A stretch of DNA of 45,958 nucleotides, taken from the NCBI RefSeq assembly GCF_023256325.1, contig NZ_JAGDXI010000033.1, positions 1 to 45,958 on the forward strand. Direction: 5' to 3'. Source of the DNA: Caldisphaera sp. GTDB taxonomy: Archaea > Thermoproteota > Thermoprotei_A > Sulfolobales > Acidilobaceae. Below, in pieces: positions 20,167-20,889 of the stretch. The notes below the pieces were generated by a model, which did no database searches, was not told where the DNA came from, and saw only the letters and a program-made list of their open reading frames with translations. The translations under genes were made by a program, and so were the position numbers. Position 1 is the stretch's first letter. The number at the start of each line of letters is the position of its first letter.

Positions 20167-20370
20167 TTCCATCACAATTAGTTTTATTCAAAAAACAAAT
20201 AATATAGACCTTTTTATATATGTTTGAATTATATTTAATGATAGCACAAAAATTTTTAAAACTATTTTTAATCTCTATAAGAAATATAAAATGATAAGTC
20301 ATAAGGTATAATAAAGTTTAAAAGCTAATTTTAAAATAAAAATGCATTATATTGACAAAAAGAATGATAA

Positions 20371-20777
20371 GCCTCGCCTTTACAAGGCGGGGTAAAAGCT
20401 TTTGAGCTTTGCTTAAGATAAATCAAATAAAGCTAGCCATCAAATGGAGTACGCTTCACCGATTTAAGATGTGAGGTAAGCCTCTACTCCGATACTCAAG
20501 AAACATAGGTATGGGGAAGCCCATATGGGCATCATGTATGTAATGTGTCCCCATGTCTTTACATATCCCTGAGTCCCTAGGAGACAGGAGCGGAGGGCAA
20601 CTCCTGTTGAGGGATAGGGGTAATGGGCTGAAGACCTAGCGGTGGTCTACCGTTAAACGAATGGAGCGGGGTGGGTAATTCCCACTAGCAATGAAGTGAT
20701 GAAAATGAAGGCGGTAAACCACAAACCCATGATCTCCCTGAGGGAACCCTCGCCCTTCAGGGCAGGGAGGAGGTCAG
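20371..20777 (+). mobile_element. Transposase-less IS200/IS605-like relic (candidate MITE)
   Basis: This roughly 400-bp block is far richer in GC than its surroundings. It begins with a hairpin CCTCGCCTT-TAC-AAGGCGGGG (20372-20392) and ends with a complex fold: CTCCCTG (20734-20740) can pair with CAGGGAG (20763-20769), enclosing a GCCC-TTCA-GGGC hairpin, then GAGGTCAG. From memory, this kind of right end is typical of archaeal IS605-family elements carrying TnpB. A short open stretch (PLLRYSRNIGMGKPIWASCM then stop, 20490-20541) may be the tail of a lost tnpB. No transposase gene remains. Limits are approximate; IS605 elements make no target duplication, so none is expected. Confidence 0.5.
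20500..20777 (+). ncRNA. Candidate structured RNA, TnpB omega-RNA-like
   Basis: Multiple nested helices can be read directly: ATGGGG (20511-20516) with CCCCAT (20549-20554) around the 12-base palindrome GCCCATATGGGC (20519-20530); TATCCCT with AGGGATA enclosing CAGGAG/CTCCTG; AGACC with GGTCT; GTGGG-TAATT-CCCAC; and the terminal fold at 20734-20769. In IS605-family elements the 3' end encodes the guide RNA of TnpB, with the guide just past the element (here from about 20778). I saw no RNase P or SRP RNA signature. Expression and family are unproven. Confidence 0.4.
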
Positions 20778-20889
20778 TATAACTGAAAAGATAAAATTAT
20801 CCTTACAACTATATAATATATCTACAACTATGAAAAGATTAGAGAAAAGTATAAACGCTCCCCATATATCCAATATATAGGGTGAGTAT

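Follow-up and report, generated by a model that had tools for sequence, protein, structure and literature searches.

A protein-free IS200/IS605-type element in Caldisphaera sp. that probably retains its TnpB guide-RNA gene

Anatomy of the island and its relatives

The window, which is the whole analysed stretch of 45,958 nucleotides from Caldisphaera sp., contains an island in which the GC content jumps to 47% (20400–20799, composition scan of the window) from about 25–30% around it, so that the GC-rich island claimed in a sequence-only reading of this DNA is real. The interpretation given there is also largely right: segment 20352–20777 derives from an IS200/IS605 element and encodes none of its proteins. 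The element itself, which is non-autonomous, of the IS200/IS605 type and devoid of protein genes (PATE/MITE), occupies 20357–20777 on the forward (+) strand, as do all features described below. Its left end is 80% identical to the IS200-605 element of the virus SMV1 over 54 nt, and its right part is 87% identical to the same element. The sequence TTGAC at 20352–20356 is the inferred insertion target and TAM (family consensus NTGAC). A 10-bp left-end hairpin (20371–20393) was predicted by folding and recurs in the copies, and further hairpins were predicted at the right end (20735–20767). Between them lies a spacer private to the window copy (20404–20507, from BLAST and folding) that can itself form hairpins; a BLAST search with 20404–20514 gave no significant match in the fetched loci except to itself. 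Near its termini the island has palindromes that are related to an IS605 element, and an ORF scan found in it no transposase gene and no open reading frame of at least 60 amino acids; anatomically, it is a PATE/MITE.

Alignment of the genome copies showed that they share TGAC and an A-rich stretch at their start and GGTCAG at their end, and that they diverge immediately past GGTCAG, whose last base is position 20777. The right boundary proposed earlier was therefore exact, whereas the proposed left end was too far in, as the true start lies about 14–19 bases further out, after the TTGAC at 20352–20356. NTGAC preceded the A-rich start in 33 of 39 left ends collected with a regular expression, a count that is not independent of that expression because it itself required a TG-purine-pyrimidine motif. 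One candidate empty site, in a gene of G004 (a genome of the window's family but of another genus), showed an apparent deletion of about 48 nt beside the element's right end, and a clean empty site was not found there.

Within the right part we identified a remnant of the tnpB C-terminus (20562–20731) that is interrupted by a frameshift and stops. The frame at 20562–20639 translates to HIPESLGDRSGGQLLLRDRGNGLKT* and that at 20657–20731 to TNGAGWVIPTSNEVMKMKAVNHKPM; compared with the SMV1 and pHVE14 TnpB proteins, both match the C-terminus of the SMV1/ISSis2 TnpB, HIPESLGAGSGGQLLVRDRGNGLK...TNGAGW...YEVMKMKAVNRKPM. The "possible scrap" of tnpB suspected previously is thus confirmed as two pieces in different frames.

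Comparison with related archaea, which the sequence-only reading had proposed as a check, found this RNA where tnpB genes end. In G004 and in G002 (likewise of the window's family and another genus) a stretch of about 226 nt occupies the tnpB 3' end, and in named records the RNA core forms the tnpB 3' end in the IS200-605 element of SMV1 and in the plasmids pMGB1 and pHVE14. Identity of the core was 86–87% to SMV1, pMGB1 and pHVE14; one contig each of Marsarchaeota and Methanomethylicota matched it at 88% and 84%, respectively. The relatives on both plasmids and in SMV1 also carry tnpA; the adjoining tnpA of the pHVE14 element is annotated as ISSis2 family, and the proteins of the SMV1 element are, by Pfam, Y1_Tnp and OrfB_IS605/TNB. 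ISSis2-type elements (pHVE14, SMV1, pMGB1) therefore have the left end, the right end, the omega-RNA and the tnpB C-terminal sequence in common with the window element, but carry the tnpA and tnpB that it lacks. This homology bears out the proposal of an IS605-type element that lacks tnpB but has retained its two ends, the right one resembling a guide RNA; the ends are clearly similar to IS605 ends, the absence of such similarity being one outcome that had been set against the proposal. A short unannotated remnant in Acidianus two-tailed virus 2 (L213:806–961) combines a left end with the first stem of this RNA.

Structure of the right-end RNA

The scaffold of the putative omega-RNA, the body of the guide-RNA gene, spans 20556–20777 and is supported by a covariance model, by Rfam matches and by the same RNA at tnpB 3' ends in named elements. 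In the Rfam search, sot0042 (RF02656) aligned over positions 1–174 of 174 (E 6.5e-7) and HgcC (RF00062) over 1–130 of 130 (E 1.1e-5). Both families thus align end to end with the window RNA, yet score below their gathering scores. RF02656 has been treated as a TnpB omega-RNA family (PMC12558985), and the covariance search suggested earlier has accordingly returned an end-to-end match to a TnpB guide-RNA family. No Rfam family reached its gathering score in the window, RNase P, SRP and other housekeeping RNAs included, so the match to a stable RNA that had been named as contrary evidence did not occur; a tRNA search of the window also gave no match.

We built a covariance model from 22 copies, against which the window scored 237 bits, a value that is not independent because the window belonged to the 22-copy training set. 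In the 22-copy alignment 93.8% of cells were paired, and 16 pairs (63 cells) had changed on both sides. Covariation exceeded that of all 500 shuffles on four of five measures and that of 488 of the 500 on the fifth, and sliding the pairing partners lowered the paired cells to 42–54%; the slides, not the shuffles, control for relatedness, and the structure was derived from the same 22-copy alignment. The window RNA had a fold z of -2.2 and keeps 47 of the 49 consensus pairs although its coding frame contains stops and a frameshift. The RNA therefore combines a conserved scaffold with covarying pairs and a variable 3' guide, as expected of an omega-RNA. In the cis copies the homologous RNA occupies the tnpB 3' end and stops where the transposon does, at its right end; in the window copy the tnpB beside it has been deleted.

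A second structure extends the RNA on its 5' side (20508–20557), where folding, the relatives and compensatory changes point to a hairpin made from the zinc-ribbon codons of tnpB (the LCGEAH..RCPRTG region) that are now non-coding. The tnpB genes of related elements form the same hairpin from their zinc-ribbon codons CTGTGCGGGGAGGCCCAC...GTGTCCCCGCACAG, and protein-free copies keep the pairing by two-sided changes (GAGGGAGGGA/TCCCTCCCTC and TGTAGAGGGA/TCCCTCTACA in G213, ATGGGGA/TCCCCAT in the window), so that here structure has outlasted coding. In ten hand-aligned sequences 98 of 100 cells were paired, against a shuffled mean of 81, although the former figure is biased upward because the arms were chosen and aligned by hand and decayed copies were omitted. 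A second group of solo copies retains just half of this stem.

HgcC was described as an RNA of unknown function as late as 2017 (PMC5732400). Four HgcC matches in G004 and two in G002 start 24–120 nt past a TnpB zinc-ribbon domain, with a fifth G004 match at 110 nt. In G004 the two best-scoring matches both lie beside tnpB and exceed the gathering score; matches above the gathering score at G004:C1:245323–245455, at 387630–387762 and at L064:1800–1943 are directly 3' of TnpB zinc-ribbon domains. The orphan family HgcC therefore seems to represent the 3' portion of TnpB omega-RNAs. A prior link between hgcC and TnpB was not found in the literature searched, and as far as we searched the association is new.

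Solo copies and their partner proteins

Through BLAST the element was found at 18 places, including the window, in its own genome (1.52 Mb in 50 contigs), the best other match having an E-value of 6e-66. Seven strong RNA copies that stand solo were detected in this genome. Against the window's 47, the other copies keep 36–44 of the 49 pairs, suggesting that decay is in progress and that the window copy is the best preserved. Four contig ends (C22:1, C22:43659, C3:13648 and C50:1) stop inside near-identical copies of the element ends; at two of them the right end equals that of the window over 55 nt, and at another the left end matches at 37 of 38 positions. These sequences point to recent sibling copies, at least some of which must be unassembled, as the contigs break inside them. 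Elsewhere in this genome (L013:2132–2630) two RNA cores follow one another in tandem, separated by a run of N.

The sequence-only reading had suggested that a TnpB encoded elsewhere could use the RNA, which our searches of this genome did not support: PF01385 gave no match, the only tnpB C-terminal pieces were one at the end of C26 (of another subgroup) and a fragment on C23, and a search for the cognate TnpB yielded one weak match only. A search for Y1 transposases also gave no match. An autonomous copy may still be missing from the assembly, as the genome comprises 50 contigs, four ends of which lie inside near-identical element ends. Across the family, a Y1 TnpA was present in only 2 of 48 genomes, though IS605-type elements are abundant in several.

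In the class as a whole, the covariance model (taking the best nine places or fewer per genome) detected the RNA in 79 of 229 genomes and 36 of 87 genera. Cognate tnpB adjoined 27 of the 87 strong hits and was not detected beside the other 60, an upper bound because at most the eight best tnpB candidates per genome were considered and 5'-truncated tnpB pieces were not counted; L162, L165, L166 and one G004 copy were counted as solo, yet on inspection have tnpB pieces upstream. Two cases are firm: G004, in which a single copy has an intact cognate tnpB and about ten others lack it, and G013, whose eight to ten copies come with no match to a cognate tnpB. Other genera and families, too, have solo copies that share the left end of the window copy, and multi-copy families of solo RNAs are present across several families of the class. 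A near-identical predicted guide was seen at L055:5388–5616 and L069:2004–2110, in different species of one genus, and that insertion therefore looks old and orthologous.

Origin of the stubs and possible use of their RNA

Overall, we regard it as very probable that a solo omega-RNA element makes up the island, namely an ISSis2/SMV1-type IS200/IS605 transposon from which tnpA and most of tnpB have disappeared while both ends and the whole guide-RNA gene remain. Protein-free derivatives of IS605 elements are already known as PATEs, and the window holds a further member. PATEs of Haloquadratum and Halanaerobium likewise have IS605 ends without a transposase, the Halanaerobium case retaining a hairpin at its left end, the final 58 nt of tnpB and the complete right end; they differ from the window element in lineage and sequence, and an intact covarying guide RNA is not described in the parts of those reports cited here (PMC3119063, PMC7290912). 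A PATE of the virus HRTV-DL1 and its host is also protein-free and archaeal, is 489 bp long and has one strongly transcribed end (PMC10544981); unlike the window element it is haloarchaeal, and for the window element omega-RNA homology was tested. The 320-bp MITE SMN1 of Sulfolobus is another mobile stub (PMC3718332). Heat-loving archaea contain many stubs like this 420-base island, in which the guide RNA of a CRISPR-like nuclease has rarely been recognised.

ISDra2 TnpB carries the right-end RNA, the last 16 nt of which come from the flank; it cuts at a TAM that equals the insertion target, and has been proposed to restore the transposon after excision (PMC8612924). By analogy, the TAM of the window copy would be TGAC and its guide would be read from 20778 on. 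The predicted guide, TATAACTGAAAAGATAAAAT (20778–20797, host flank), follows from the boundary at 20777, past which the copies differ, and the earlier placement of a guide from 20778 onward is supported by the terminal GGTCAG and the variable flanks. We propose that the stubs would have been mobilised by TnpA supplied in trans, and that a TnpB likewise supplied in trans may have used the stub RNA with the flank past 20777 as its guide. Cutting by this TnpB at the empty site left by excision (TGAC plus flank) would then have led to the stub being copied back and retained. The cognate TnpB and TnpA of this host may have been lost, or may lie inside an unassembled repeat. Counting against trans mobilisation and trans use in this host, neither a cognate TnpB nor a Y1 transposase was found in its genome, and Y1 turned up in only 2 of 48 genomes of the family.

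A plainer history is that the island is simply a decayed IS605 remnant whose RNA is intact merely from youth and was never a trans guide, which we consider unlikely, though a serious contender. The older copies in this genome are decaying, its cognate TnpB was not found and the near-identical contig-end sequences suggest recent arrival, all of which would fit; however, the same protein-free architecture occurs in several genera, and the once-coding hairpin keeps its pairing through compensatory changes that decay would not yield. It is also conceivable, though on balance unlikely, that these RNAs form an old, self-standing class of omega-RNA-only elements in Thermoprotei, selected as RNAs, that outnumber and outlive TnpB, act as trans guides (one TnpB with many guides, as in G004) and parasitise the autonomous elements of SMV1 and plasmids.

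That the solo RNAs were domesticated to serve the host, with guides chosen for regulation or defence, seems very improbable: the one cognate tnpB copy and many solo RNAs of G004 would suit such a role, as would a near-identical guide common to a G004 and a G002 copy, but the other guides resemble unrelated flanks, the left ends are preserved as in mobile elements, and the TAM with 16 nt of the window guide gave no match to viral contigs. We give virtually no credence to the idea that the island encodes some other stable RNA, such as RNase P or SRP, or a GC-rich regulatory RNA with no connection to transposons. A GC-rich island in an AT-rich genome recalls the hgc RNAs of hyperthermophiles, yet the window has no Rfam match at gathering score, HgcC itself sits at the tnpB 3' end, and homology to annotated IS200/IS605 elements refutes a stable RNA unrelated to transposons.

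As a solo omega-RNA element, the window copy is now probably a well-preserved but idle stub. Present use of its RNA in trans is possible but not its likeliest state; the family's use in trans in the past has better support. Should solo omega-RNAs indeed serve in trans, a single TnpB would protect an entire family of stubs that lack protein genes, and this would help to explain why IS605 stubs persist even where a genome shows no Y1 transposase. Through this family, guide RNAs naturally separated from their nuclease become available, and a function is suggested for HgcC.
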